Below, one piece after another: positions 10,724-57,022 of a stretch of DNA of 64,000 bases. The translations under genes and the position numbers were made by a program. How positions within the stretch are numbered: position 1 is the stretch's first letter; every line of letters starts with the position of its first letter. Source of the stretch: Cloeon dipterum (lineage: Eukaryota > Arthropoda > Insecta > Ephemeroptera > Baetidae). The notes below the pieces were generated by a model. It was not told the DNA's origin. It searched no databases and worked only from the letters and a program-made list of their open reading frames with translations. The stretch lies in the NCBI RefSeq assembly GCF_949628265.1, contig NC_088786.1:15376001-15440000 (forward strand). The letters are read 5' to 3'.

Positions 10724-12554
10724 TCACATGACGCTGCACTTCTCCTTGATCTTGCTTGTCCCTTTGGCGCTGCGGTTCTTAGCGTCCAACTGAAGCGAAA
10801 TGGACCTGTTCTTCTCCATGTTGAGCAGTTCCTGCAAGGAAGAGCGCGGCCGTTAAAATAACAACAAAAGAGACGGCGCAACAAGTAAATAGGGACTCGA
10901 TCTGGCGGTATTTGAGCCTAAGACCGCGCGCTCTGGCCTTGGGGTTTTATGATTTTCTAGTTTGGCTATTATGATTTAGTTTTCCATTTTCCAGGGCAGT
11001 TAATTTATTCCAGAGCACCGCACGCTATATTATGCAGCTTGCGTGATTTTAGCGGGACATGACGAATTAAACGCTTTCCCTTTCACAGCGGGCATGCACG
11101 TGGGGATTGGGAGCAAAACACAATCATACTTGGAACAGCTCTTTGACGTTGTGATTGGTTTTGGCGGATGTCTCCATGTAGCTGCAACCCCAGCGCTGCG
11201 CCTGCGCCTCGCCCTCGGCCAGTGTGACCTCTCGGGTGGTCTCCTCGTCCACTTTGTTGCCCACCAACATAACGGGAATGCCGTCCAGACTGCCACCCTT
11301 GACCTCACACATGACCTCCCAGATGGGCCGCAGCTCCTCCAGCGACTGTCAGGAGGTCACAGAGAATACCAAGATGAACGCGTGCCCCTTGGAGATCGAG
11401 AGACGCTGCATCGCGGGGAACTGGTGCGAGCCTGTTGTATCTGTGATCTGCAGCGTGCAGATGTTTTTGTTGCAGCTGATCACCTGTGAATTGTTTAATT
11501 TATCAGTAAATTGCAATATATGTTACAAAAACCTTTTTGATATATTCTAAACGGTTGTAATTAAACATTAGCAAAGGCTATGAACTTAATTTTAATGTTC
11601 TAATTTAAAACAACAATATTACTTAGATAACTGGGGTTGCAAATTCCCAATTTTTATCAGAAGGTTAAAAATTATTAATGTACGCAATCTATGCAACTGG
11701 TGTATCCTGTTCGACTCACGGGTTGCATAATTTTTAAATGTGCAGGAGTCATAATTCTTTCCGCGGACTTCCGGAGGAGACAAAGTTCTTATCTAACTGC
11801 GGCTGTTATCATTTTCATGATTTTTGTCTTCTAGTTTGGCACTGAGTTGAAGACACGGCCAATTGTGGCGTCTGTAGTGGAAAAGTTGCAAAAAAGTGGG
11901 GTAATAAAAAGCAATGATCTCAGGCAAGAGCAGCCAACGCGTGCAGGTCCTGACTTGTTTATTTTCAGCAAATAATGTTTAAACGGCGGGCATAGTGTTT
12001 TCAGAGGCACTCGACCCACTTGTTGGATCGCGAGACAAAATGGAGTATAATAGTCCATAAACACGACGCTCAAATTAATATTCAGTGCCTTGTCAGGTGA
12101 AATTAATTGTGCCATCCGCTTTGGAGCGCGCGTGTCGCGTCTATATACGTAGTGAATGAAAGGTTGCGGTGAAAACGTACACCGTTAGAGCAAGTCGAAT
12201 GCTGATACACAATCGCTTCTGTCTGACACTATAGACGTAATAATGGATATTATTTCTGAATATTTCTTGATAAATTCTTTGGCGAAAGCAGCAGCTAATT
12301 ATCAGGGGCAAAAACAGAAGCAAAACAATGACACAGAGCGAGAAGATAAACATTTGATGATGCACTGCTCTCAAAAGTGCACACTCGAGCGCGAGCAAGG
12401 GGACGGACGTATTTACCTGTCTGTAAGTGTCTTCAATGGTTGGAATGTAGGACTCGCGAAAAGTGCCCTTGACGAATCGCAAGACGAGGGAACTTTTACC
12501 GACGCCACCTGCTCCGAAAACCACCACTCGGTAGTCGTTGCTTTGCTCAGGCAT
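10724..12554 (-). CDS. DIRAS2: Di-Ras family small GTPase, interrupted by an in-frame TGA
   Basis: Three coding exons on the minus strand: 12417-12554, 11130-11483 and 10724-10831, 199 sense positions plus the stop, the same length as vertebrate DIRAS2. The start [20 protein letters not shown] is almost identical to the vertebrate protein. Motifs seen: P-loop GAGGVGKSS, switch [10 protein letters not shown], the Di-Ras-specific DTTGSH in place of the Ras DTAGQE, NKVD, ETSAK, and C-terminal CSVM, a CAAX box for prenylation. Di-Ras proteins are plasma-membrane GTPases with little intrinsic GTPase activity. Codon 91 (11349-11351) is TGA where the family has arginine (TSRQSLEEL); the frame on both sides is intact and all splice sites are canonical. 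A likely 5' UTR intron ends at 12599. The break may be an inactivating mutation, an allele or a sequence error. Orthology to DIRAS1 versus DIRAS2 is not resolved. Confidence 0.9.
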
Positions 12555-31992: not shown

Positions 31993-33906
31993 TTAGACGA
32001 GAGGCTCTTTTTTAGTTGGCAGCTCATCTGCTTCCTCGTCAAGAAGTAAAATTGCCTCCTTTTCCTCCAAAATCGCTGCCATTTTCATAGGCTCATAGCA
32101 CAGCCAGCCGGCAAGTAGGCCAGTAGCTAACCCAAGAAGCCCAAAGAACCATTTTGGCAGACCGTACTTATTCGACAGGCAGCCGAGAAGGTCTGAGGGT
32201 GGCTGCAAGGGTGTTTTGGGGGGTTGCGGCGGTGATGGCTGCTGCACCACGAAAACTGAGTCTTGAGACTCTTGTGAGGAGAAGAGGAGAGCAAACCGGG
32301 CTCTTCCGAGCATCGACGACAGTAGCGGCCCCAGGGACGCAAGGTCCCTAGCACTTTCTTGGAGGACTTCTTGTCGCAGACGTTCTTCCGCCCTTGCAGT
32401 GTCTCGAGCCATACGTGCACATCCCTGGTGACACGCGTAGCGTTCTTTGGTGTGGCAATAAGCTTCCATGCATGCTGCGGGAAAATAATGCATACTTATA
32501 AAATTTTATTTTCAATTTTATGAGCTGGCCTAGTAGTCCAAGAGCTATACCCAATTCTCAAAGCAAGCAGTTTGCGCGCAAAATGAGCAAAGTCGGTATT
32601 TCATATACTTTTTCGAAATTTCAAATAATGAACTAATGGCTAAACTCAGCGCGAAAATTAATTCAGGGTGGCCTGCTAATAGTGAAGTAAAAGAGCAGAA
32701 TTTCACTTTAAGAAATTACCATTTTTACTACAAAGGAAGTTTCATTTAATTGTTGAGAAGTTTAGTGAGCCTGAGTGTTACTTAATTTTTACCTCAAGAA
32801 TTTCACTATTGGCTGGACCCTTCTTAATTAATTTGCTTGCAAAGTTCAAATTCAAAATTTGATTTTACTGTGGATCAGCAGCGCAACTTTACCCCATACA
32901 TCCTCGCATCAAGAATACAAAAATTATTTTATATACAGGAAATATCAGACTATTGGTTCAATATTCGGAGAAAATTATTTGGCTGACTTTTTGTTAAGCA
33001 ATTTTGGTTTTTTTAAAATACATAAATTACCTATAGGTAATATAATTTCCACTATGTCCCTGAGCAACATATCATGTATACAGAAAATTCAGAAATGCCA
33101 AAATCGTGCAACAAATAGCTGAAATAAAATTGCTTTTTAGCACTGTGAAGTGCGCGCACTGTGCTGCACAAATGCTGAAACCTGACAATGAGTCCCAATA
33201 ACACCGCGAACGGATAACATACATATGTGGATTAGGCCGCACAGGGACCCAGCTCACTGAAGAGCCAATTTTTTGTAATAAATGTTCTTATTTGATGAAA
33301 TCTTTATTAATTATGTCTATGTATGTTGTACACCTTTGGTGTTGAATAAAGATTATCCAACTTTTATTTTTTGTTAAATATATTTTTACTTTAAGCCTTT
33401 TTATGTTAAACATTTTGCGCAAATCCCTTGAAAACGTTTGCCACTTTTAAATTTTATTCAAAATTTAAATATATATTTAGGATGTGAAGCTTCGCACACA
33501 CATTTCGTAAAAAATTGGATCAAGCGCTGCGATTTGGTCGACATGCTTACATGACTGACAAGATTCTTTGGAAGAGTTGAGCGGGTACTGTTGGTGCGGC
33601 TGATGCGGCTCTAGTCCTCCAAAGACTGCCTCGATTCCACCAACCCCGTGGGCACTGCTCACCAGTTCAAAGAATCGGCAACCCCGTTGACAAGCATCGC
33701 TCAGCTTAGCAACCTGACGTCAATCAAATATATCCTCACGACAAAAAAGTAATGGATTTGAAATTTACCGTGTTCTCGTTAAACTGCTGCAAACATGCCT
33801 CGCCACAATTTGCCTCTGCAGGAGCGGCTGCCGGCTCACAGGAAGCAAAAGTGGCCAGCGACGCTAGGCAATGCAGAGAAAATAGCAATACCCCCCAGCA
33901 GAACAT
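31993..33906 (-). CDS. TMEM59: TMEM59-like single-pass membrane protein
   Basis: Three exons on the minus strand: 33769-33906, 33551-33713 and 31993-32474, with consistent phases, encoding 260 residues. The N-terminus MFCWGVLLFSLHCLASLATF is a signal peptide. Cysteine-rich luminal segments follow: CGEACLQQF, CQRGCRFF, CQSSCMEAYC and YACHQGCARMA, the spacing seen in TMEM59, then a family phrase (LLFSSQESQDSVFVVQ) and one transmembrane span (FFGLLGLATGLLAGWLCY). A short acidic cytosolic tail ends in KKEPLV. Vertebrate TMEM59 is a Golgi/endosomal glycoprotein linked to glycosylation control and ATG16L1-dependent autophagy. This protein is shorter than the vertebrate one (about 320 residues), mainly in the linker before the membrane span and in the tail. 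I did not see a clear ATG16L1-binding motif. Intron 2 holds a dispersed repeat copy. Confidence 0.85.
33192..33220 (-). repeat. Dispersed repeat, core of copy B
   Basis: Matches copy A (8142-8170) at 25 of 29 bases in opposite orientation and copy C (49041-49070) in the same orientation. It lies in intron 2 of the TMEM59-like gene; similarity extends weakly towards 33255. Confidence 0.5.
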
Positions 33907-34400: not shown

Positions 34401-35710
34401 CTAGGTCTCAGGGCACCGGGTATGTTGGATTCGCATTCTTTGGGCTCCTGATTCTGCAGCTGCAGCTTCTTCTTCGCAGATGTGCACCACAATGCCTGGC
34501 TGACCGCCAGAAGGGGGATGCAACTCATGAGTTTCGCCTGGACTCAGAAAAAAAGAAAAATCAATCACGCAGTTTAAAAAATTAAGCAACTACTGAATAT
34601 TATAAAATTCTTACAACAAAATTTTGACTCTTCTACTCAATAGTTTTACCTTATTACACTTAAAAGATGCACGAAATAACACCAAGACTGACAGTATTAC
34701 CTGGAGAGAGATTAGCGATGGCAGCAAGAAGGTCGTAGTTGACAAGGGGATCCGCCTCGCCTTTCTGCTCCCATCCGTAGGGAGGCGACGCTGGGGGTGA
34801 GATCAGGAACTGTTTGGTTAGCGCCGGCGGCTGCAGGTGCTGGTCTTCCATGTCGATAGGCGACACTGGCTGTGCAAAATAACAGTTGATAGTACTGCTG
34901 CCTATTTTCGCCTGGTGCAACTCAATGCGCGCCCGGGCCGCCGCCGCTGGAGTTTTGAAGTTGACCCTCATCCGACGGAAGCTGCGGAAATACTGGAACG
35001 ATACCGTCTCACCATACTGGTTGAACAAGTTTTCTATGATTATCTGAAATCATAATCAAAATAGGCTCATTAGCACGCAATTCTTCAAATTTAGCCAGTT
35101 TTATTTATAGACTCAGCAAACGTTTACCATTTAATCAGTTAAGCTACATTACTGTTCATGATGCATAATGCGTAATTATTTTATAACCGCGGGTGAAGGA
35201 TGCCAGCCAACAATATTGTCACATTACTAGATAATTATTTATCAAAGACATAATATGATGCGCATAATGGCAATATTTATTTGACACTAGATATATTGTA
35301 TGTATACATACATCCCAAGTCAATTATTTTCAAAATGAGTACTCTTAAAATTTCATCACAGGGAAAAATGGCATTATACATATACATATTTTGGTCGTCC
35401 CCTTGCCTAGAAGAGTCCAAGTACGCCAAGTACAATAATACTAGCAGGAAATGGGTCATGAGTGGGCGGCCGTCGTTCGACCAACAAACGCCGAATACTT
35501 CACCTTCTCTTCGTCACTCTTGAATACGGCTGAATTTAGATTGGTCACGATCAGCGAGTTAGGAAGATCGTCGTCGTGGACAACGTCGTCTAGGCCGCGG
35601 ATGTCCTCGTCGTCGTGGTGCTCAAAGTTGGGGTGCGCATTTGGCAAACCGTCGGCCGCGTTGATGATGATGTCGGCCTCCATGGCCGATGCCGACTCTT
35701 CGCCTGCCAT
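34401..35710 (-). CDS. RCAN: Regulator of calcineurin (calcipressin, sarah)
   Basis: Three exons on the minus strand: 35504-35710, 34701-35043 and 34401-34537, encoding 228 residues. An acidic N-terminus (HHDDEDIRGLDDVVHDDDLP) leads into an RRM-like fold (NSLIVTNLNSAVF, IIIENLFNQYGETVSFQYF, RRMRVNFKTPAAAARAR). Then follow the calcineurin-binding signature FLISPPASPPYGW, with the serines phosphorylated in family members, and near the end a PxIxIT-type docking site (PGIVVHICE). RCANs bind calcineurin directly and inhibit or, depending on phosphorylation, support its phosphatase activity; the Drosophila orthologue sarah acts in egg activation. The start ATG at 35708-35710 is chosen because it begins the conserved acidic segment. 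The gene is head-to-head with REV3 across 266 bases. Confidence 0.95.
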
Positions 35711-38900: not shown

Positions 38901-41900
38901 GTCCATAACTACACTCTCAAATGATGTAATAGAAGACATGGTATTTATGAGCATAACTTGCAGCTTATATGTTGATAGAAATTACATCCCCCATAGGAGC
39001 CGTTACTTATCAGTGATGATGATGATGGTGACATTGTGCTGACTCAAGTTAACAAATCTCTCGAAAAGCTATTACAAAATGGTCCTTCAGAAAAAAATGA
39101 GCAGGTTATTCATGAGGCTTCAACTTTGAACCTCAACACCCAAGAATTCACTGAATCCAGTCAACACACCCCAAAGAAAAGAAGACTTTCGCTGTCTCTA
39201 ACACCTCTGAGTAAAAGAGAACGACGCTTTAAAAGGAGGGATAGAAGAAGAAAGTTGCAATATCAAGGTTTGCAGTAATTAATTTAAATTTAAAATATTT
39301 CCTTCATTACCATGAAAAATTTATAGGAATGACCATGAACGAGATTATGCTTATGAATTCACCTCAATCAAAAAACGGTTGCAGCCGAGCTAAAAAGGAA
39401 CCAGACAAGTACACAAAATCAAGCTCTGATGAATCCCAAGATGTTTCTGGAATGAAAAGTTTCTACAATTTTTCAATCCCTGCAAATAACATTCTCATTG
39501 AACCTGCGCAACCTCCACCCAAGAATCTTGAACTCTCCGAATACAGCTTTCAGGCGATCAAATTTCAGCCTCCATTCTACAGCGAGCCTGATGACGGAAA
39601 TCAGCCACTGTCCTCTGCTCCTTGTCATTTGCCTGATTACACCAGCTACTGGAAAACAACTGAGGATCTTGGTTTTGACAGCAAGGAGAAGAGAACTGTG
39701 ATCATAGAGCCTCTGCTACCTCCTCCAAAGCCAGAGCAGCTGTTGGCCACTGGTAATGTCAAGGAACCTACGCCTGATTTGTCTGAAATGGACAATCTTC
39801 AGCAGGCTAGAGCTGTTGTTCATGTAAGTAGTGTTTCATTTATGAAAATGATACGCTCATTTGATTATTTTTTTACTATTCTTAAAAAAAACTGAGAATA
39901 TTTATAGTTTTCTTAAAGAAATTTATTGATATCGACTCTTGAATAGTGTCATTCACATTTATTAATTTTTTGATCAGTCTTATGTATGCTGCAATGACTG
40001 ATTTTTTCATTTTTCCTTAGGTCCAATGTTTTTACCTTACAGATTATGAAATTTTGAGAAAAAAAGACTGGTTAACTTAAAATGAATAATAGCTTAATGA
40101 ATAAATATACAACAGTTAAATATTCACAGGAAAACCACTTAAACGTGATGCATTTGGAGGTACTGGCTGCCAGTCGTGGTAAATTGAATCCTGACCCTGA
40201 AGTAGATCCTGTATGTGCCATGTATTTCCTTGTTCATGGTGATAGAGGAGCTTATAGCAAGATGGGTGTAATAGCTGTGAGGTCAGATACTCATGCAACG
40301 GCTAACCTGTTGTCTCCAGAGATGAACAAGAAGTGCCAATATGTGGAAATAGTTCCTGACGAATTTGAGGCCTTATCAAAACTTGTTCATTTAGTGCAAA
40401 CTGAAAATCCAGACATTCTAATGGGATATGAAGTAAGTTCTAATCATTTTGTAAAAATCTTGTCTGCAATACCAAGAAATGTTATTAACCATGATATTTA
40501 TTGGTTGGATAAAGATTAGTTTTTTTATTATAATATATTGTGCTCATTTTGGCAGTGCAGATCTTGCAAAAGTCAGTGCCAAATATTTTGTTGTATTTCA
40601 TTTTTATAAATTTCATTCCAATAATTTATTAATGCTAGTAAATCGAGCGCTTTATATGAACATATCTTTGGTTTAGATTGAGATGCACTCATGGGGCTAC
40701 GTTGTCCAAAGAGCTGCCAGAATTGGACTGAATCTTCCCAATATTGTGTCGAGGGTACCAAAAACTGAAAGTCTTGAAGCTCGGCATATAGACGTGTCAC
40801 AAGGAGCCATAGTTGAGTATTCTGACTTAAAAATACCTGGTCGAGTAGTGCTCAACCTGTGGCGACTTCTGAGACACGAGGTTAAATTAACAATTAGTTT
40901 GATATTGTTTTTGCTCACACTCAGTTTTAGGTTGCCCTGCAAAACTATTCTTTGGAGAGCGTCTCTTTCCACTTGCTTCGGCAGCGGTTGCCACACCATC
41001 CAGAATCTTTACTGATGTCCTGGTGGGCGGAGACCAAACGCTGCTTCCTGGTGTCGACCCACCTGCTCACCAGATTGCTCACATGCCACCGCATTTTGTG
41101 CAACCTCGACTTGCTTGGTCGCACCTCTGAGCTGGCCAAGCTCTTTGGCATCCAATTTTCTGAAGTTTTGTCTCGTGGATCTCAATTCCGAGTCGAATCC
41201 ATGATGCTGCGCCTTGCTAAACCCCGAAACTTTGTCCCTGTTTCTCCTGCTGTCACTCAGAAGGCGATGATGAAGGCGCCGGAATGCATTGCTTTGGTCA
41301 TGGAGCCGCAGTCTTTGTTCTACGAGGACCCGGTGGCTGTGCTGGACTTCCAATCGCTCTATCCTTCTGTCATTATAGCTCACAACCTGTGTTTTTCCAC
41401 GTGCCTTGGTCGAGTAGAGTTACTGGGCAAGGACGATCCTTTCGAGTTTGGCTGCACTATTCTCAAGGCAAATATTAAATAATTTAACGTCAATTAAAAT
41501 GAAATCGCGAATTTGTTGTGAAGAAATAACGCCTTTGACATTTTTAGGTGGATCCAAGGAAACTTAAGAAACTGGAACCATTTGTAAGTCCAAACGGAGT
41601 GGCCTTTGTGCCGAAAAGCGTTCGACAAGGAATTCTGCCTGCAATGCTGTCTGAAATATTGGAAACCAGGCTGATGGTGAAGCAATCGCTCAAATTCAAC
41701 AAGAAAGATGAGACCCTTGCCAAGGTCCTTCACGCCAGACAGCTTGGGCTTAAACTTATTGCCAACGTCACCTATGGCTACACGGCTGCTAACTTCTCTG
41801 GTCGCATGCCTTGCATAGAGGTTGGCGACTCGGTGGTCTCTAAAGGCAGAGAAATATTGGAGAGGGCCATCTCCATGGTGAACCAAAACCAGCATGTCTG

Positions 41901-43185
41901 GGGAGGAGAAGTTGTCTATGGAGACACCGACTCCATGTTTGTGCTGTTTAGAGGGAAAACCAGGCAGGAGGCGTTTGACATTGCGGAGAAAATTGCAGAT
42001 GCCGTCACAAGAGACAATCCAAGCCCCGTGAAGTTGAAAATGGAAAAGGTTTACCAGCCGTGCATTTTGCAGGTGAGGTTCTGGATTTAATTATTATTCA
42101 AAAGTGTTTACCTAAATTTTATCAGACTAAAAAGCGGTACGTGGGCTTCATGTATGAGAGCAAACACCAAGAAGAACCGGTTTATGAAGCCAAGGGAATT
42201 GAAACCGTCCGAAGAGATGGATGCCCTGCAGTTTCGAAGGTAATTAAAAGTTATGGAATATCTTCAAAATATAGGCCCTTAAATGTTCAAATGAAAATCT
42301 AAAGTTCTACATTCTTGCTATCAATTAAAAATAAGATTTTCGAATAATCCTGTGAGTTCATACTGCCAAAGTGAAAATACGGATACTGTATAATATTTTT
42401 TAAATCCCCACTTTTAGCTTCTGGAAAAATGCCTCCGGATTCTCTTCACCACCAAAGACTTGAGCTTAGTGAAGAGTTACGCAATTGACTATTTCCAGCA
42501 AGTGCTTCTTGGCACAGTTTCCCTGCAAGACTTCATTTTTGCCAAAGAATTCCGCGGCCTCTCAGGGTACCGGCCTGGAGCGTGTGTGCCCGCCCTTGAA
42601 CTGGCTCGGCAGTGGGTCCGTGTGGACCGGCGAGCCGAGCCGCGCCGTAGCGAACGTGTCCCGTATGTGATCATTGCAGGGGCACCTGGACTGCCGCTGA
42701 TCCGACTTGTCCGCAGCCCACACCAGCTGCTCGACGATCCGGCGCTCAGACTAAACGCTGAGTACTACCTGACAAGGGCTCTGGTGCCTCCGTTGGCACG
42801 ATGCTTCAACCTGCTTGCGGTAGATGTGTCCGGCTGGCTGGCGGACATGCCGCGGAGAACTGTGGTTGGTCTTACAGGGAAAGGCTCAATTGCTCACTTC
42901 TTTGGAAGCTTAGAGTGTCCGATCTGCAGGAGTCAAACGCGGGCCGGCCTCTGTCAGGATTGCAAGATGCAGCCGCAGATGGCGGCTGTCTGCTTAGGAG
43001 AACTGGTGAGAGCGAGTGAAAGAGCTCGACAGGCAGTGGACGACCTCTGCGGCTCATGCTGCGGGAGGAGATTCGACCTTGAGTGTGATAGCCTTGCGTG
43101 TCCCGTCATGTACCGCAGGAGGAGGGATATTGCTGATGATGGAGTGTTCAAACTCAAGCAGTGCCTCCAAGATTTGAGTTTTTGA
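35977..43185 (+). CDS. REV3: DNA polymerase zeta catalytic subunit
   Basis: Family-B translesion polymerase subunit. Seventeen exons: 35977-36118, 36172-36358, 36709-37061, 37112-37287 (or 37290), 37345-37513, 37569-37682, 37736-37839, 37886-38367, 38424-38940, 38997-39267, 39327-39823, 40130-40432, 40677-40880, 40931-41467, 41548-42072, 42126-42239 and 42418-43185; about 1820 residues, shorter than human REV3L (3130). Seen in order: N-terminal domain (PFYGYHEKE, EDILNRI), a divergent acidic middle, two REV7-binding motifs in exon 11, an exonuclease-like domain (EIEMHSWGYVVQRAA), and polymerase motifs DFQSLYPSVI, KLIANVTYGYTAANFSGRMP and YGDTDSMF with its catalytic aspartates. The C-terminal zinc (CPIC, CQDC) and iron-sulfur (CGSCC, CDSLAC) cysteine modules are present. 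Many introns are about 50 nt. Intron 14 has a GC donor. The exon 4 donor is uncertain. Confidence 0.95.
39494..39727 (+). other. Two REV7-binding motifs in REV3 exon 11
   Basis: LIEPAQPPP (39494-39520) and IIEPLLPPP (39701-39727) both fit the known REV7/MAD2L2 binding consensus, two hydrophobic residues, any residue, P, three residues, PP. Human REV3L also has two such motifs in the same relative place, between the N-terminal region and the polymerase core. Confidence 0.75.
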
Positions 43186-44146: not shown

Positions 44147-47100
44147 TTACTGCTGCAGCAGCTCGTCGGCTTCCGACTCCCAGTTGGCTGTCGACGCGTC
44201 GTCACCTGCCACCATCTCAAAGTCACTGAGCTCGGCCTGCAGTTCTCGTTCCCATTCGGCGGCAGCTGCAACTCCTCAATTGTTCAACCAAAAAACAAAC
44301 GCTCACATGCGGGGGAGAGAGAGAGAGAGAGTTTGAAGCAGAGAAACCGAATGAGAAAGGGACACTTGTGGGTCTGAGAGTGATATATATATTTTTTTAA
44401 TCCTTGGAATATTGTCTGCCCACCCCTGGCGAAATGAAAGTGGAGGGGTGCACAACATGCTATGGGATGTAGAGGAGTGGGTTTTCAAGAGTGAGGAGGA
44501 AGAGGCCTTTCTCGTCCTTAAGCTGCACATAACAGACAAAACATCAGAAAGACGCGTTAGTTTTTTCGACTCACTTGTGTCACTTGGTTAGTTAGCGTTA
44601 AAGAGTAGTTTAGATTCACCACCTACCTCGTCTCTTAATCGACTACTTGGTTATTTAGCAATATGTTATGACAACTACTTTGTTAAAGTGAAAGCAAAAT
44701 GAAGATGCAATAGGCTGTGGGGATTTGCTCTAATTTTAATGAATATTTTACTGCGGAATGCGATGCAAAAATAATAAACTGTTTAATGAGCTTTCCCGGC
44801 CAAAGCAAATAAACGTCATTTCATGCAATGCTCTCACAGGGGAGAAAATCACATGCAAGGTCATGGAATAGGGAATGAACCAACTTCCCTAGGGGCCAAA
44901 TTCTGAATAAATGAACATGAAACGCTAGGTACTTAGCAAACTTTGCAGGCAAACATGCCACAGTGGTGTAGCACAAAAGCAGCTATAGGTCAGCCTTTTC
45001 TGAGTGAGCCATTGCAGAGCGTGCTGAATTTCAATTTCAATGGCATCCAAGCACCTCTGCTCCGGCGGAAGCCAAAGATTAAAGGGAAGACAGAAAGTGC
45101 TCAGGACTGAGCTGGGAGGCGAGTTCAAATAGAACACTCACCTGGTGCTTCGTCTGCGACACCTAGCCTCCGGAGTTCTTGCAGCGCTTCCATCCTCTCC
45201 TGCTCGGTGGTTTGCACCTCATCCGAGACAAATGACTGCTCCTGCTCTAGGGGGGAGTGTTGAGGGATGGCTACGGGTTCAGGGGTAACTACGGGGCCAT
45301 GCAGTGAAAGACATCGATAGCTTTTAACTTTCGACAAACCTGTGTCAGCATCCAAACTTGAATTATTTCCACCCTCGCTTGCCAGTGAGGAGAGCTCGTT
45401 GCTCTGCTTGATCAGGCTCACCCGGTAGAAGTAATTCCTCCAGAAAGTTTCCTCATTCACTCTGCAAACAAGGAGGCAAAAAAAGTTGAGCAGCTTTTCA
45501 TGACGCTCCATCACAAAACCTACACTTTGGGCACGAGCTCGAACCGCATTTTCTCTAGCTCAGGGTCCTCAACCAGCAAGGCCTGCGCCACGGGGGTGAA
45601 AGTTTCATAGTCGAATTCAAAGGTCACCCCTGTTGGTGGTGCACGTACAAAACTCCGCCGGTCCTGAGGCGGAAACGAGTCAAATCAATATCAATATGAA
45701 TATGAATTGCGAGTTTTGGCGAAAAGCAACCAACCTGTGATAGGGACAAAATCTCCTCCTTGAGCTTCTCCTCGTTGGGGTATCCCACCCAAGGGGGGAC
45801 GGCAGCTTCCATGCTCTTCTGCTTGCTGTTGATGAAAGACTCCTGCTCCTTGTTGAACTCGCCCAAAATTGTCTGAAGCCAGAGAAAAGGGGTAATCAAA
45901 ACTTTAGCCAAGAAGCAACAGTTAATTGGCAAAGAACCAGTCTTTAGGAGGGAAAGCCGATGATTAGGCGGGCTCCGATAAACATAGGACGTGAGAGAGG
46001 AAAAATCTGCGCCCAAGACGACTCCTCTTTCCCGAAGCATTTTCAAAGAAAAAGCGAGAAGAATAATGTTTCCGGGATGTTATAATTCAATGAACCACTC
46101 CACTGGCTATATATAGCCAAAAAGACGCACGCTTTAACCAGTCTATACATTCCTATGGGAGAATTGGTATTTTCCGAGACCATTATTTCTTCGCACCAGC
46201 TACTTACTATTAAATAAAACTTGTTTATTCATTGCCAGAACCGCAAGATTTTAAAGATTCATCATATATGCTTTATGTTTGCAGGGGAAACAATTGCTGG
46301 CAATAATAAAATCTTGAAGAAGAAAAAACACGTAATGTCTTGCAAAAATAAGTAGACGCAAAATACAAGAAAATTGATTTTTTGTTTTAATGGAAATGTC
46401 CGATTAAATTTCTTTTGCAGCAACGTGTTCAGACATAGCATTTAGAGCGGGAGTACATCAATATTGCCATTGCTGGTAATCGAATAAGCGCCGCAAGACG
46501 CGGAACGAGGCGAACAGCAAAAATTGAATAAAATCACGTGTGCGAAACGGGCAGGGGCAAAGTGGAGCAGTGTGCGAGCGAGCGGCGGCGGGCAGATCGA
46601 TATGCAGTTGCAGATGTTGGTCGTGGCACCCACGCACTGCTCCGATCAATAATCCGCCACCCTATCTGCTCGCTCGATTCGGCCTCTCCGTTTTAAGCCC
46701 TTGAGCTGTCTCTGCTTTCAATCAAAAACAGCCCTTGAGTGAGTGTGCGGTCCAAAAAATCCGAAACAATGGGCCGACAACAAGAGCCGGCCGCCGACCT
46801 AATTAATAATGCGTGTAAATAATCAGGTGTGTGCGTGTTAAGTTGGCTGTTTAAACACGCGCCGGTCTTTCTGCCGTTCGACCCGTTTGTGGCCAATTTA
46901 CCATGGACAGAGACCAACTTTTATTACAGCCATTGGGAGCGCAGAAAATAAAATTTGACAGCAAACATGAAGAATTCTCTCGTCGCCTGGCCGTATTTCC
47001 TAGATTAAAAAAAACCCGGCAGACAACAAGACGTGGCTCGTTTCGCCTCGGCCCCAAAACAACTTCCATATTTCATTCAGGCTGGCTGCAACAGAAGCTG

Positions 47101-50100
47101 GGAAAAAATCGATGCCCCATGAAAGGAGTGTGCCAACTGACACACTTGCATAACAGCCAATGGACTCAATAGGTCACCCTGTGATTTCGCGACCATATAG
47201 TGTTCAACCCGAAAACGTAAAAATCTGATTGTGAGTTGCCTTGTTTTTACATAAAAAGAGCACAGAGCGAAAATCGGCGAAAACATTATGAAACTTAAAA
47301 CATTGTTCTGTTTCTCCGCAGCAGGTGTAACGAGATTGGTTGAACTGTATTAATAACTGATTGCAATGCGTAAATTTGTTGTTTACTTAATATACACGAA
47401 GTGTGTTGCATAATTAATTATGATTTTATGCCGTATTAGTTTTTAGCAGATTTTTTCAAATTTCTGAAGAATTCGTATGTTCTTTAAAATGCGTTTGCGG
47501 TCTGTGGATTTTACGGATTGATTAAAGAATTGGTTGATTCCGTACTTTTTGGACTGTAAATAAATGTGAAATAAACAAATAGAAACGTTGCGATTTTCTT
47601 CTGGTCGCACAACTTGTCGCGCGGAATAAGAAAACCAGGTCGGAGGAGGCAAAGCAGCTTTTCGTTTCACGCTTCGCTTGCTAAGGAATATGGAATTACG
47701 CGCCGAGCTCAACTTCTCGTCTGCTGAAGCTAACAGCAAGGGAAACTTATAGCTAGGGTGACGAAACAGGACTCGGCACTCACGTTCTTTTCGACAGTCT
47801 CCTTGATCTTGGCGCTGGCTTCGCTGACCTTAGCGCCCGCTTTGTTTACCGCCGAGTAGAAGAAGCTGCCGAAGGCCTTGGCTCCCTGCATCGCTTTTGT
47901 GCCCACAGCTGGAAATCAAGGGGTGGAAATCTGGTTTAATAACGCTAATTGGCCATTAAAGGTTTCAATAAGAATTGAATTTCAAGTTGCGGGGAAATAT
48001 CATCAAGTTTGGCGTCATGGTCGCAGGAAATGGGTCAATTTAAGAAAAATTGTCATTAAAATTATCTCAGTTGCACTGTTGAGTTCAGTGGCATGTGTGG
48101 AAAATGCACTGCGCAATAGCCCAGTTTCCTGTGCGGGCTGACAACGACCTGAATTTATCAGTTTGAAGGGCAGCCTGGCAACTGGAAATGCGACGTATAA
48201 GTGCGACGAAGGTAGGTAAGAAGTACTGTCAAGAAGGAAATGATTCTCCAGCAGCTGAAAAGCGTTAGGGAGCGCAAAGTCGGGAAAGACACACTCACCT
48301 GCTCCGGAGCCATCCTTAGCCTCTTCGCCCTCATTTTCCGACACCTGTGGCTCGCTGTCGGCACCGCCTGTGTCACTGCAAAGCAATTTTTGAATTAAAA
48401 AAAACTTGCCGACTGTCTTATCACCTGACTTTCAGAGAGCAGCTTGTTTTATGGTGATATTGTTTTTACTCGTATTAGCTGTGTTGTGCGCAATTCTTTT
48501 CAGTTGAATTTATAGAGTGAATACAAATTACCCAATTTATAATCCCTCCTCTGATATATTTTTTAATAAAATTTCAAAACACGATTATGACAACGTTCCC
48601 TTATTTACGCCATAACTTTGAACGAGTTTCAACTCCCTAGAATATGAATTTTAGACCCATCAAATTGATTATTCACAAAATTTGCCTGCTATATTATGTA
48701 ACAAATTTTCACCAATGCTACCAGCCACTTTTTAAAGAAGCCAATATTTTAAAAAACAGTTCCAGGACTCGTTACAGTGCTAGAAATTTTGAGCAAATTT
48801 GTTTAACCAAAGAGCGTACAAAAGCTACCCATTAACTTTGTGAATTTGTAATTAAATAATGCAACAATAGTGTATTGATCGCTATACCTAAAATGCTTAA
48901 TTTATTGCTTTGAAATGTGGCAAGTGAATTTTCATGGGCGCATCGCGGTGATATTGGTTAACTTCATCAGTTTTCTGCTAGCTTTGTTACTTTACTTTTT
49001 CTAACTTCTGCTCACTTCCTGTGGGCTGCGAGTTCCCCAAGTCCCTAAAACACCGCCGAGCGGATAACACTGGGCCAGAGTAGCTGCAGAGGAGCTAGGG
49101 CCGAATATGACCATCTTTTCGTCTCCTCTCAGCCTCTCTAGTCAGCATTGCTTTGAAGTCTGACAACTATTTGTTCTGATTTGTACATAATTTTTTTATG
49201 AATATGAAGTCATAAGTTTAGTAAAGACTGTAAAAACATCGCCAACAATAAGTCGTTAAAACCAAGAAGATTTCAAAATAAATAGGAACTAAAAAAATGA
49301 CCTGTAAATTTGAAATGTTGCGTCTGACAGAAATGAGCGGAATCGTAAAGTCTAGAATCATACAGCGATTACGTTTCGACGCCTGCGCTTTCGAAGCAAA
49401 AATTCACGAGGAATAGTTAGAGAAAATTAGAAATGTAACGCTCTTTGGTATCTCGATAAAGCTCAAACATTTTTCTATTTTTCACTTGAGTGACGAGGCG
49501 GAGAACTGCATAGTATATTGAGTGCAGTTTTTGTACACCGTCCAGTTTTGCGTGTGTGCAAAAAACCGCGAACAACATCTAATTTACTTCTAAACCACTT
49601 AACAGTCAAATCGCAAACTCAGCCTCCCACTTACAAGGCCAAACAAGACATTATTCCTTATTCACAGTTTGGCAAGCCGAGACACAAGAGGAAATCCACC
49701 CCGCGCTATCAAAACTTTTTTCAGACATCGCGGACACTTAATCGGTTCATGCAAAGTCGCATGCAGCCGGAACAACTGATATAAACTCTGTACAGTTCGT
49801 GAACGCTCGCACGCGCAATTGATTTTCCATTGGGCGGCAAAAAGCGAGTCGGGGGCGCTCAAGTTTTTGCTCTCTGACGATGGAGGCAATGGTGGTGAAC
49901 ATGATGATGACAGTTTTGATGCAGCATGAGTGAGGTGCAACTAAATTAGAGACATATAGAAAAAGACAGTTACCCCAAGTACCTAGAATTCTCATCATCC
50001 TCTTTGGGAGCAGCGGGGGCCGGCTCGGTGGGCTGTTGCAGGTGCTCGGGCGGATCGGGCACCACCTCCTCGCCGGTGGCGCGGCTCTTGACCGCCTGAA

Positions 50101-51526
50101 TGAGGCCGCCACCGGCGTTGGAGATCAGCCCGCTGCCGGCCCCCAGCCACGAACTCATCTGGCTCTTCACGTTGGTCAACATTTCCAACTTGCTGCCACC
50201 CTTGGTGGGGCTGAAATCAAGCACATTCCAACACACATCAGTCACAAAAGCCTAACGATAAACACCGACACCCTCTTTGTTAGCTATAATTCAATTAACG
50301 TTTCGTCCAATGTAGGCACGACTCGTAGAAAAATTGTGTGAATAGAGCAATCAATGGCGACTAAACATTTAGACGGGGTTATTGGACTTTGACTCATAAT
50401 CAGCTGATTTTAACGCTACACTTGATTTTTCGGCAAGCTATATCTGCATAAAATACGAATTTGCGCCTCAAGAGTGTCAAATTTTAATTTAAAATCTGTG
50501 TGTTTAGGCCCAAATTGTTTGTAATGATGGTGTTTGTGATTTGTAGCTTTGGAAATACAGGTAAGTATCGCCTATAAAGATGTTAAGTTTTGATTCTAAT
50601 ATCTTGCCTTCACGTAACTCAACTACTTACTGTAATATAGTTTACACGTCACATTTAAGAATGCTTTTGTGACTATTGGGAGCACAGATTAATTTTGTCC
50701 AATAAAAGATTATAGTACTATAAGATTATATAACGACATAATCTCTTCAACATTTTTCATGAAATCATTCGTCACCAGGGTATGAAATTTGACCTGATTG
50801 TTTTAGCTTGACTAAATAATTAGACTTAATGAAAACCACAAGGGAATAAAGGCTTTAGCTGAAAATATCGAAAATATAGCATGATGTGTTTTAATTTTCC
50901 GATGAACGTTAATTAGAAAATATTAGTAGTAAAACTCTATTTTTTTATTGATAAAAATTATTCAATAATTTGTTCCTCTTATAAAAAACCAATTTAAATC
51001 TGATATAAACCTCCAAAGGGCGCGGTTTGAACATTTATCAGCAAGCAGTTAAGTGGAATAATGCATAATCTTTTATCTCCGTGATCTCTCCCAGGGATTT
51101 ATACGTATTTGCATATTATGCTTTCCCTGATAGACGCATCCCGCGGGAAATAAGCACGTCATGCCTTTCTGCGAAAAGAGCAAGTACTTCACCTAAATCG
51201 TTAGCAATAATTCGACAACCCCTAGAACGATCCGCTTTTGGTCAACTGCAAAACTGCGCAATTAGGGCTTTAAAAGGCATGACAACACTTCCGTCAAGTG
51301 TAAGTGTACGTTAGAGCCCGTGAGGTGCCTACCTCATAAGTTTGCCCTCAGCATCGAGGACTGGCTCCGGCTCAGGGACCAGTTTTTCTTCCTTGATCGG
51401 GGAAGCAGGCTGTGGGGGCGGCTGCTCGCCCTCGACGCCAACCTCCTCGGGTTTTTTGCCGAAATAGCTGGTGAGGCCGGACACTTGGTTGGTGAGGCCG
51501 CTCGTGAGGCCCGAAAACATGGACAT
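44147..51526 (-). CDS. SYAP1: Synapse-associated protein 1 (SYAP1/Sap47), BSD domain
   Basis: Eight exons on the minus strand: 51333-51526, 49983-50210 (alternative end 49974), 48299-48375, 47784-47908, 45735-45872, 45524-45663, 45142-45461 and 44147-44265, encoding about 446 residues. The start MSMFSGLTSGLTNQVSGLTS and the alanine/lysine-rich segment KAFGSFFYSAVNKAGAKVSE are typical of the family. The BSD domain spans exons 5-7: VPPWVGYPNEEKLKEEILSL, FEFDYETFTPVAQALLVEDP, and FWRNYFYRVSLIKQS. The C-terminus has EWERELQAELSDFEMV. Drosophila Sap47 is a synaptic protein and mammalian SYAP1 has been linked to Akt signalling. Two in-frame methionines lie at the start (51526 and 51520); the first is used here. 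Introns are large; that at 45873-47783 contains a GC-rich block near 46480-46700, which could be an internal promoter. A (GA)n run lies in the last intron. Confidence 0.93.
44315..44331. repeat. (GA)n microsatellite
   Basis: Short GA run in the last SYAP1 intron. Confidence 0.85.
49041..49070 (-). repeat. Dispersed repeat, core of copy C
   Basis: Shares GTCCC, ACACCGC and CGGATAACA blocks in the same order with copy B (33192-33220). It lies in a SYAP1 intron between the exons at 48299-48375 and 49983-50210. Confidence 0.45.
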
Positions 51527-52506: not shown

Positions 52507-55500
52507 ATGGGGTGCTGTGGCGAACGACAGGAGAGCCCGGGAGTGAGACAGTGCACGGACGTCACTTTTCTTGTCATTTTCATCGTGTTCGTCTGCATTT
52601 TGGTCAGTGCCAAACCCTCGTTAGATGGGCGTGGTGGAAAACCGCGCTCACACATTAAAACTCGCTTTAGGATAAAAATAAGTTGGTCTTCATATCTCGA
52701 CGCTTATATTTGTTTTGTGAGTAGCTCTTCGTAGCAGCATTCGCTATCGTCTATGGCAACCCTCTCCTGCTGGCACACGGCTATGACAGTTTTGGCAACA
52801 TCTGCGGAAAGACCAACGAGGAGCAAGCCGGTGGTCTGGTGCTCTCTGGACTGGACATGACCCACCGACCGTAAGAGTAGCTTCTTCTTTTATAAATTAA
52901 TTATGCAAAATTGTTAAATTAAAATAAAGAAATATTCTTTACACAAGACATTTTGTAGAAAATTTTAAATTAATTATGGTGAAATTCTTCAATTAACTCA
53001 AATAATTAAAAGAGCACCATTCAATTTACAGCTATCTTTTTAATCTCGATGTGAGCCATGTGAATGAGTCAATCAAGATCTGTGTGAAGCAATGCCCAGA
53101 CAAAGAGCTCTCTGTGCTCGCCGATCTCAAGAAGTTTTATGAGGAAACAGGATCATCACTGTGCAGCTATAATTTCAACTTCTCACAGCTGGAGACAAGT
53201 ACTAAATTATCGCCTGAGGTAAGATTTTTTCTTTTGGTGCAAATTAAATTCAATGCTTAGTATATACTTTAAAATCTGCAAACAAATTTTTTAGGACCAA
53301 TTCAGCAGTCCCCTGGGGCCGTGTCCTTTGTTGCCTGTATTTCAAAGTGATCAAGTGCTAAACAGATGTGTGCCCTCAGCCAACTCTTCAGTTCCCACAG
53401 ATGTATTGCGTTCGTTCTACGAAATCCTCAACAGCCCTGCTGCTCTGGAGCAGCTTGTCGCTGATCTGTACCGAACGTGGCGCCTGATTTTTATCCTCTC
53501 GTTTGTGTCTTTCATGCTAGCCCTTGTCATGATTCTGCTGCTGAGCTTTGCCACGGCTGCAATTGCTGTTACCTTCACAGTTGTAGTCTCTGTGGCTAGT
53601 GTCGCCGGTACTCTCGCTCTCTGGTGGGCCTATTTGGAGACTAAGTGGCTGCTGGATGAGACTCCAATCGAGCAAATGCTTGAAGAGACTGCAACCAATG
53701 AACGGTGGCTGCTCATCTTGGCAGTTTTCGCTACTCTAGTGACTGTAGGCTCTACCTCTTTTCATAATTAAAGTCTCATAATTTATTCATTTCATTCTTT
53801 TAGCTGGTGCTGCTTTGTCTTGCCGCACATGTGGCCAAAAATGTGAAGACGTTGGCGGCCCTTTTCAAGGAAGCAAGTGGCTTTATCAAGGTGCGCACAG
53901 TTGAAATTGTAACTGGAAGTATATATTTTTGTTATCATTTGCTCACTCGTAGGCCCTCCCATCCTTGTACCTCCAGCCAATTATCACTGTAGCTGTTCTG
54001 TTGAGTCTTTTCTGCGCATGGATGTATGTGGTGCTGTGTTTGGCAACTGCTAGTAAGAATTTTTGTTGAGATTTTTGCTTTGGTGCTCATTTGGTGTATT
54101 TTAGCAACCCCTGAAGCGAGGCAGATAATTCTTTACACAGAGGACTCAAACATGACATCAGTAAATAGTAAGTAGAAGTGATTTTAAAAAACCTTGTAAT
54201 TATTTGTGTTTCATTAGCTGCTTTCTTCACAAACTGCAACTAAAAAAACGAACATTAGATAAGAAAATCTACATAATTTACAAAATATTTTGTTTCTAAA
54301 AAGTGGTTCAAGTTAATGACATGATAATACATGTCATAATTTTCTGATTAGGAAAGACTCACATTATCAAAAAAAAACCATATCGTCTTGGTGCCGTAAA
54401 AATTGCGCCCAGCAAAACAAACACCTAAATTTTAATTTTCATATTGATTGCTGCTCATTTCTTGCAACATTGAAATTTTAGTTTGTTTAGCTTTGCACAA
54501 TTTTTACGGCACGTCGATGATATGGGAAAGTAACTAGATTAACATGATAAATATGTCTGACACAAAATAAGTTTCATTCTATTCAAAACCAGAACTTGGA
54601 AAAAAAATCAAATAAAGTAGTAACACCTGAGCGATTTTCATTATCTTTTCGCAGAATTCACGTTACTGCAGTTTGTTGAGTTGTCGTGGGTTCGCTTCGG
54701 CTGGTGGATATACCTGATCGCCCTGGTGTGGGTGTCGGAACTAGTGCTCTCCTGCCAACAAATGACCTCGGCAGGGGCGTTGGTGGACTGGTATTTCCTC
54801 ACCAGTGGAAGACGAGATGGAGGCGCCCGACTCCTTCTCACCTCGGTGCGGCGCTTGGTGTGGTACCACCTGGGCTCAGTCGCCCTTGGCTCTCTGCTGA
54901 TCGCGCTCTTCAAGCTCCCCAGACTTGCGCTTCGGCTGCTAGGAATCAAGCAGAAGCCTCTGTGCTACGAGCGTGGCCTTCGATATGTTAACCACAACGC
55001 GTATGCTGTAATTGCCATCGAGGGGATTGACTTTTGTCCATCAGCAAGAGTGGTTGGTCTCAGAATTTGGAAATCTTAAAATTTTTACCTGCCAAACAAT
55101 AATTTGTCTTTGATTGATGAAAAGGCGTTAATTTACAAGAGGCTTAAAAAAACTTTGCTCTTCTGAAACTATTTCAAAACATTTTTAGATTCATTTTATA
55201 TTTTAATCTTTTAATTTCTCCTTGAAAATAATCAATTTTGTTGCAATAGCCTTATCTGGATTTCTCTTTTCCCCAAAAATAAAATTAATTTGCCTTGTAT
55301 TGATCTAGGAAAAATACTTTCTTCTCTTTACTTGTCACAAGTAATTCTTTCTGTCAAATTATAAAATAACTTGACGCACGGTAATTTATATTTTGACAGG
55401 CGTACCAAACCATGGAGAGCAATCGTCTGCACTTATCTCCCATCAATAGTACTGGTGATTGCTTCCTATTTTTGGGTGAGTACCATTAATTTAAAATAAT

Positions 55501-57022
55501 TTTGAATGAACTCTTTGTACTGACTGATGGGTCAAATCGTGCAAATCCAATTTCTGAAGTTAAGATGCGCATAAAACGGCCGAAATAACGTTTAGTTTCC
55601 CTCTCAAGTGACATTGTATATATAGCGATCTACTGAAAAATAAAATTCTTTGCAAATTTCCCTAGAAAATTAAATTTCAGAGAGAGTGATTTGCTGTTCA
55701 GCATTCTATTGTGACAATGTTATTCTCCTACATGTTCTGCTCATGTTCTCTTTAAATAATCCTGTCGCATTGTTTGTGATTGCGATGCTTGTATTTCATA
55801 AAGTAACTGCTAAAAAGCCACTGGCGAACAAATTAAACCTTTTTCTGCCGTCATCACAATCAGCGAGCAGCCTCTCTCATTTGAATTTTCACCAGGAGCT
55901 ACTTGCTGCCACGAATTACGAGTTGTCTCTCCATTCTTTTTGAGTGAACAAGTGCTTTGCACATAGCTCACGTTCTAAGCGACCCAGCATTTTGATCATT
56001 TGGGCTGATTTTGAGTGGTACGTGCCCGTAGGTAAGTGCTGCGTGACTGCCGTGGTGGGTTGCGTTGGTTTGCTGACGATGCGCCAAGACCCGCAGCTGC
56101 ACGTTTACGCCGTTCCTGTGCTGGTGCTGTGCGTCTTCTCTTTCTACGTCGCCCACTCGGTCTTCACCCTCTACGAGGTAATATACTTTATATTTTTCCA
56201 CTTGCCCTATCTGCCCGCCAGAATGAAATATGAAGCAATGCAATGCGCGACTCTGCGATATTGCTCAAGGCAAAACGTGAAAAAGTACACGCCTGGTTGA
56301 TCGAAATAATGAGCTTCTCTGACTTTTCAATTATCGTACATATTTTCGCTGGAATCAGCAGGAAACTTTGTAACTGTCGTGTTTACAAGAAAGTCGAGTC
56401 TTTTTTCTTTCTAAATGGACTGCCTATCTTTTGTAATGCAAATGCTTCGGATTAATGCATGCCGCCTTCAACCTCATGAATTTTCCGCAGACCCAAAACT
56501 TTGTTCATGTTAAATCGGTGCTTCCAGTGTTTTCAGTGAAAGCAACACCCCTGTCTACTTCTTAGAAAAGAATACCCTGTTCCTCTATGTTAATTATGGT
56601 AAACAGAACAACTAGCAAATTTGAATTTTCTAGGGCTTGGGTGTATTTTGAGAAATTATTTTTCACTTTTTTGTGTTACTTAAGGTTTTTATTTGTCGTT
56701 ACCGTTCTGATAATGTCTTCTTGACACGTAATTAATTCTGAAATTAAATTTTTAGACGAATATTAGGAGCATTGTAGCCATTTGTTTTATTATCTGGCAT
56801 TGAAGTATACTTAGATTTAGCAAATATATCAAAATGCAATCATTTTGAGATGGGAATGCCATTTCTCCGCAGATGGCTTTGGACTCCCTTTTTCTATGCG
56901 TGGCTGAAGATCAGGCTCTTAGTGTGGGATACCAGGCGTACCGACGGCCGCACATGGTGCAAGCTTTGACCACCCTTTGCGCGAAGAGCTCTACACAGCC
57001 AGAGAGTCAGCCCATGTTTTGA
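52507..57022 (+). CDS. SLC44A1: Choline transporter-like protein 1 (SLC44 family)
   Basis: Eleven exons: 52507-52602, 52725-52870, 53032-53218, 53295-53744, 53804-53890, 53953-54052, 54105-54167, 54655-55052, 55400-55475, 56032-56177 and 56873-57022, giving 632 residues. The protein begins MGCCGERQ, as human CTL1 (MGCC), with a possible myristoylation site. Then come a first membrane span, HGYDSFGNICG, a luminal loop with paired cysteines (CVKQCPDKEL, SLCSYNF), and several spans, including the family core ELVLSCQQMTSAGALVDWYF and VWYHLGSVALGSLLIALFKL. NHNAYAVIAIEGIDFCPSAR and TGDCFLFLGKCC lead to the last spans. SLC44 proteins are plasma-membrane and mitochondrial choline/ethanolamine carriers. 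Exon 2 was set to start at 52725 (LFVAAFAIVYG), which keeps phase 0 with the GTCAGT donor after 52602. Intron 7 contains a long hairpin. Confidence 0.94.
54378..54525. repeat. 148-bp imperfect inverted repeat (hairpin) in CTL1 intron 7
   Basis: The left arm from 54378 (CCATATCGTC, GTGCCGTAAAAATTG, AAACAAAC) pairs with the right arm ending at 54525; read backwards, the right arm gives CCATATCATC, GTGCCGTAAAAATTG, AAACAAAC in the same order and spacing. Arms are roughly 55-60 bases with a few mismatches, around a loop of some 30-40 bases. It may be a small inverted-repeat transposon or the stem of a processed small RNA. No clear target-site duplication was found. Confidence 0.75.

Follow-up and report, generated by a model that had tools for sequence, protein, structure and literature searches.

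What does a single in-frame TGA mean in a gene that is otherwise intact and conserved? The question is raised by a Di-Ras GTPase gene of the mayfly Cloeon dipterum, which lies on the minus strand of the window (the whole stretch of DNA analyzed, 64,000 nucleotides). The gene comprises three exons, with GT-AG introns, and 199 codons (46 + 118 + 35). Exon 1 (12417..12554), which was delimited by translation, its splice site and a genome search, contains codons 1-46 with the start ATG at 12554, the P-loop and switch I. Exon 2 (11130..11483) contains codons 47-164 and encodes switch II, the in-frame TGA, NKVD and ETSAK; it was delimited by translation, its splice sites and a Pfam Ras match that runs through 1 TGA. 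Exon 3 (10724..10831), delimited by translation and its splice site, contains codons 165-199 with the C-terminal CSVM CAAX box and ends in a normal TGA stop (10724-10726). Intron 1 (11484..12416) and intron 2 (10832..11129), both GT-AG and likewise on the minus strand, are bounded by the donors CAG/GTAAAT and CAA/GTATGA and the acceptors CACAG/ and TTGCAG/.

The internal stop occupies codon 91 (11349..11351, minus strand), as placed by translation and by alignment to the structures 2gf0 and 2erx, and is flanked by GTG ACC TCC on its 5' side and CAG TCG CTG GAG on its 3' side. Where a Di-Ras gene should have an uninterrupted coding sequence, this one is broken at that codon. The protein motifs follow in their proper order, NKVDEE, METSAK and KEKCSVM, the last forming the C-terminus, and we saw no second lesion in the start, splice sites, frame, motifs or CAAX box. 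The first-pass annotation had described three exons with canonical splice sites, 199 codons and every motif through the CAAX box, interrupted only at codon 91, with NKVD, ETSAK and CSVM undamaged beyond it; the bases and their translation bear out each of these points. An open frame of 161 codons (window 11004-11486, plus strand) runs antisense to exon 2 and is probably a side effect of the high GC content of the coding strand.

With X written at codon 91, the predicted protein aligns with Di-Ras1 (2gf0) over residues 1-199, full length to the CAAX box (E 5.3e-92), and with Di-Ras2 (2erx) over residues 5-177 (E 3.4e-89); both alignments are unbroken apart from one-residue gaps. We take 2gf0 and 2erx to be the human Di-Ras1 and Di-Ras2 proteins. 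These two are the best matches among the solved relatives, ahead of Rap and Ras, with Rap2A far behind (E 7.4e-46). The mayfly protein can be aligned along its whole length with all G motifs, and differs from both relatives in the in-frame TGA. The 90 residues before the stop score 47.9 bits on their own against the small GTP-binding domain (cut-off 42.5), and the whole protein with X scores 75 bits. Di-Ras1 carries Lys at position 91 and Di-Ras2 carries Arg, so the earlier statement that the family has arginine at this codon stands for Di-Ras2 but not for Di-Ras1. Searches of two further collections returned no Di-Ras orthologue: among 75 candidate stretches in prokaryote genomes there was 1 relative, a GTPase with 24% identity from an archaeal assembly, and in viral contigs there was none among 5 candidates.

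Conservation was compared on the two sides of the stop. Before it, the mayfly protein is identical to Di-Ras1 at 81/86 positions (0.94) and to Di-Ras2 at 80/86 (0.93), while Di-Ras1 and Di-Ras2 agree with each other at 79/86 (0.92); 77 of the 79 positions common to those two are kept. After it, the corresponding values are 53/84 (0.63), 56/85 (0.66) and 60/84 (0.71), and 48 of the 60 common positions are kept. The back half is less conserved than the front half in all three pairwise comparisons. Judged from these alignments, the part after the stop appears to show no clear decay, and its identity, slightly below the Di-Ras1/Di-Ras2 level, is compatible with either ordinary divergence or a mild relaxation of constraint.

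Searching the whole genome (190,111,064 bases in 10 contigs, five of them of 33-43 Mb, with the window at G000:C1:15376001-15440000) with the protein gave 27 matches. Three are the near-identical Di-Ras exons (92, 96 and 95%), and the remaining 24 are only 28-48% identical; the search thus found neither a second Di-Ras nor a retrocopy nor an exon duplication, and a tandem exon 2 and an alternative haplotype contig were rejected on the same grounds. The best-scoring other match, on contig C4 (45% identical, E 3.5e-44), outscores the short Di-Ras exons 1 and 3. The search tallied 2 TGA at Di-Ras, one of which lies within the donor of intron 2 (GTA/TGA). On this evidence, Di-Ras appears to be single copy in the 190-Mb genome.

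To gauge assembly quality and how far stop codons are tolerated in general, we surveyed four families through Pfam matches at stated E-values. The matches listed, which are lower bounds, numbered at least 434 (Ras 128, protein kinase 139, mitochondrial carrier 82 and RRM 85), and 106 of those listed contained an internal stop (28, 57, 15 and 6, respectively). All 106 were translated, and 105 of the stops were judged by eye to fall at a match edge, a natural gene end or an intron-like insert; the only one of these 105 checked in the bases, locus L045, has a GTGAG donor at its stop. Among the matches listed, the Di-Ras TGA is the one stop that, by eye, lies within a conserved exon. Since the survey lists lower bounds and was judged by eye, a real stop hidden in an intron-like insert could have been missed. 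Of COX1, only a 46-residue fragment (L042, G000:C2:8963136-8963273) with an internal TGA and TAA was found, scoring 33.4 bits against a family cut-off of 34.8; it is perhaps mitochondrial DNA copied into the nucleus.

The stop itself needs only one C-to-T change at a CpG, from CGA to TGA. Of the Arg codons in the Di-Ras coding sequence, CGA and CGC are used most often (3 each), and exon 2 is mildly depleted in CpG (observed/expected 0.70 vs 0.93 for the window), which makes CGA to TGA an easy path; the depletion fits a CpG transition from CGA but would not prove it. The lack of further damage also bounds the age of any loss. An unconstrained copy without another disabling event would have a neutral divergence of at most about 0.03 substitutions per site (95%), a limit that counts other nonsense, start, splice and frameshift changes under assumed rates, with indels at 0.1 per substitution.

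The explanation we favor, with confidence slightly better than even, is that an otherwise functional, apparently sole Di-Ras gene acquired a nonsense mutation very recently in the haplotype that was assembled. If, as we infer, the base is real, the codon that preceded it was most likely the Arg codon CGA, converted to TGA by a C-to-T transition at the CpG, and the change is probably recent and allelic, the TGA allele most likely segregating in the species or heterozygous in the sequenced animal. Translation would stop after residue 90; the resulting fragment would lack two nucleotide-binding motifs, NKxD and SAK, together with the CAAX anchor. The TGA-bearing mRNA would be a likely target of nonsense-mediated decay. 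The product is accordingly expected to be non-functional and the allele probably loss-of-function. The absence of any other lesion and of clear decay after the stop supports this reading, as does the abundance of segregating premature stops in flies: 972 putative ones were reported in 819 genes across 162 Drosophila lines, 86% of them at under 2% frequency (PMC4271532). Several points count against a nonsense allele. The slightly lower conservation after the stop could be read as mild relaxation, and, as Di-Ras is apparently single copy, its loss would not be buffered by a close paralogue. By analogy with flies, old conserved genes rarely have common premature stops: 0.3% of the oldest fly genes are given as carrying moderate- or high-frequency premature stops (PMC4271532).

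The alternative that we rank second, although we consider it unlikely, is that the assembly consensus has a wrong base at the TGA and that the animal's Di-Ras is normal. A single wrong base would suffice, in a gene whose remainder is intact and which is conserved and without a second copy found. However, the assembly appears to be of good quality: by eye, the at least 434 matches listed contained no other stop in mid-exon, the window contains no N, and five contigs reach 33-43 Mb. The change also fits a typical CpG transition, whereas the consensus errors of long reads are mostly indels in homopolymers, a point that would count against a base error if the assembly was built from long reads. 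A recently fixed pseudogene, in which Di-Ras has been lost from the lineage and further lesions have yet to accumulate, we give only a slim chance. One disabling change in the sole copy found is in keeping with such a loss, as is the post-stop part, whose identity to Di-Ras1 and Di-Ras2 is slightly lower than theirs to each other, and the worm Di-Ras orthologue is non-essential. Against it, the coding sequence is without a clear sign of relaxed constraint and the gene is strongly conserved between the mayfly and Di-Ras1/2. Where a pseudogene would be recognized by several lesions or by decay, Di-Ras has one lesion and no clear decay after the stop; the several other disabling mutations by which the first-pass annotation would have known a plain pseudogene were looked for in Di-Ras, and only the one lesion is there.

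Could the stop instead be fixed and tolerated? Useful readthrough, with Arg, Trp or Cys inserted by near-cognate tRNAs to give full-length Di-Ras (a "pseudo-pseudogene"), is in our view improbable, and we give slightly less credence to the more specific proposal that the TGA is fixed and that neuronal UGA-C readthrough (Arg, Trp, Cys) sets the dose of full-length Di-Ras, with the 90-residue fragment as the main product. The generic leaky TGA-C context speaks for readthrough, as do a position 91 that is either K or R and may tolerate further residues, a post-stop part left intact in the sole copy found, and precedents in D. sechellia Ir75a and other fly receptors, in Drosophila neuron reporters and in insect SPS1-UGA. 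However, neither folding nor the downstream bases provide a local signal. Five stretches at the TGA folded no better than shuffled sequence (z -0.28 to +0.28), which indicates no structural element and leaves a structured readthrough element unsupported, and the downstream bases, CAGTCG, are neither CTA nor the GGG-UG[C/U] hexamer. None of the marks of programmed readthrough (UGA-CUA, the hexamer or a downstream structure) was thus found at this stop. Readthrough commonly gives little product, and we know of no example within the core of any Ras-family GTPase.

Repair or recoding at the RNA level, whether by A-to-I editing of UGA to UGG, by selenocysteine insertion or by splicing around the stop, is very improbable. 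The genome carries a tRNA-Sec gene (75.3 bits, anticodon TCA), so UGA recoding machinery probably exists, but position 91 is Lys/Arg, not Cys. An Rfam scan of the window at the gathering score gave no match, a scan for SECIS motifs over the 2 kb that follow gave 5 weak matches vs 5.45 in shuffled sequence, and none of the 5 had a fitting stem in a stem scan that was run without a positive control. Selenocysteine at the Di-Ras TGA was rejected on these grounds, the site having neither a 3' UTR SECIS nor a Sec/Cys position. Splicing escape is suggested by the segment GTGACCTCCTGACAG around the stop, which starts with GT, ends with AG and at 15 bases is a multiple of three; however, 15 bases is, to our knowledge, far below known animal introns. 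A-to-I editing, which would give Trp, is unlikely: the target A is preceded by G, the least favored neighbor of an A edited by ADAR. Among the options raised in the first-pass annotation, a very recent change, an allelic one and a sequencing error all fit the absence of a second lesion or clear decay and the single step from CGA to TGA; readthrough gained no support beyond the generic TGA-C context, and editing fared poorly.

For selD (selenophosphate synthetase), one gene only was found in the genome (L088 / L139, G000:C4), as 4 exon matches at one place, none alone over the family cut-off. It has an in-frame TGA near 4621539, presumably the Sec position, in the context FADLKG(stop)GCKVPQE, and the bases after this TGA are GGG TGC. 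The GGG-UG[C/U] hexamer is reported for insect SPS1-UGA and described as absent from insect SPS2 (PMC4561486). Despite the tRNA-Sec in the genome, no SECIS was found near selD by Rfam, motif scan or stem scan; because the stem scan was blank here as well as at Di-Ras, it has no positive control. selD may encode a selenoprotein whose SECIS escaped detection, or it may be decoded by readthrough. Elsewhere in the window, 8 of 10 stretches scanned with Pfam were over a cut-off, including calcipressin (34663-35049, minus strand), a choline transporter (54624-56297, plus strand), a BSD domain (45128-45559, minus strand) and BSMAP (31996-32505, minus strand); 53295-53768 matched Claudin_2 below the cut-off and 49973-50251 had no match. 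A family-B DNA polymerase, presumably REV3-like and with a C4 zinc finger, has exons at 40931-43182 on the plus strand.

As a nonsense allele, the Di-Ras stop would be ordinary. Readthrough, if true, would change how annotators handle conserved genes with one internal stop, and it is the only reading that would. A short, conserved and apparently single-copy gene with exactly one lesion makes a clean test case. One of the closest parallels is insect SPS1-UGA, which is described in Hymenoptera and some Paraneoptera as a conserved gene with an in-frame UGA, no SECIS and Arg at the site in relatives, all of which Di-Ras shares; SPS1-UGA differs in that it is reported to be conserved across species and to carry both the GGG-UG[C/U] hexamer and an overlapping RNA structure (PMC4561486); neither the hexamer nor such a structure was found at the Di-Ras TGA. 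The pseudo-pseudogenes D. sechellia Ir75a and other fly olfactory receptors resemble Di-Ras in having a premature stop in an otherwise intact animal reading frame, but these are receptors for which readthrough is reported from experiment (PMC5615767), whereas Di-Ras is a GTPase known here from its sequence. In Drosophila reporters, premature-stop readthrough is reported as highest in brain neurons (PMC7244557). Premature-stop readthrough thus occurs in insects, which makes low-level rescue of Di-Ras possible but unsupported. The segregating stops of the Drosophila Genetic Reference Panel share with Di-Ras a one-base nonsense change in a gene that is otherwise intact; old fly genes are reported there as least affected (PMC4271532), whereas Di-Ras is old, conserved and apparently single copy. 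Since premature stops segregate in numbers in flies, the stop in mayfly Di-Ras is unsurprising in kind and slightly unusual in its target.
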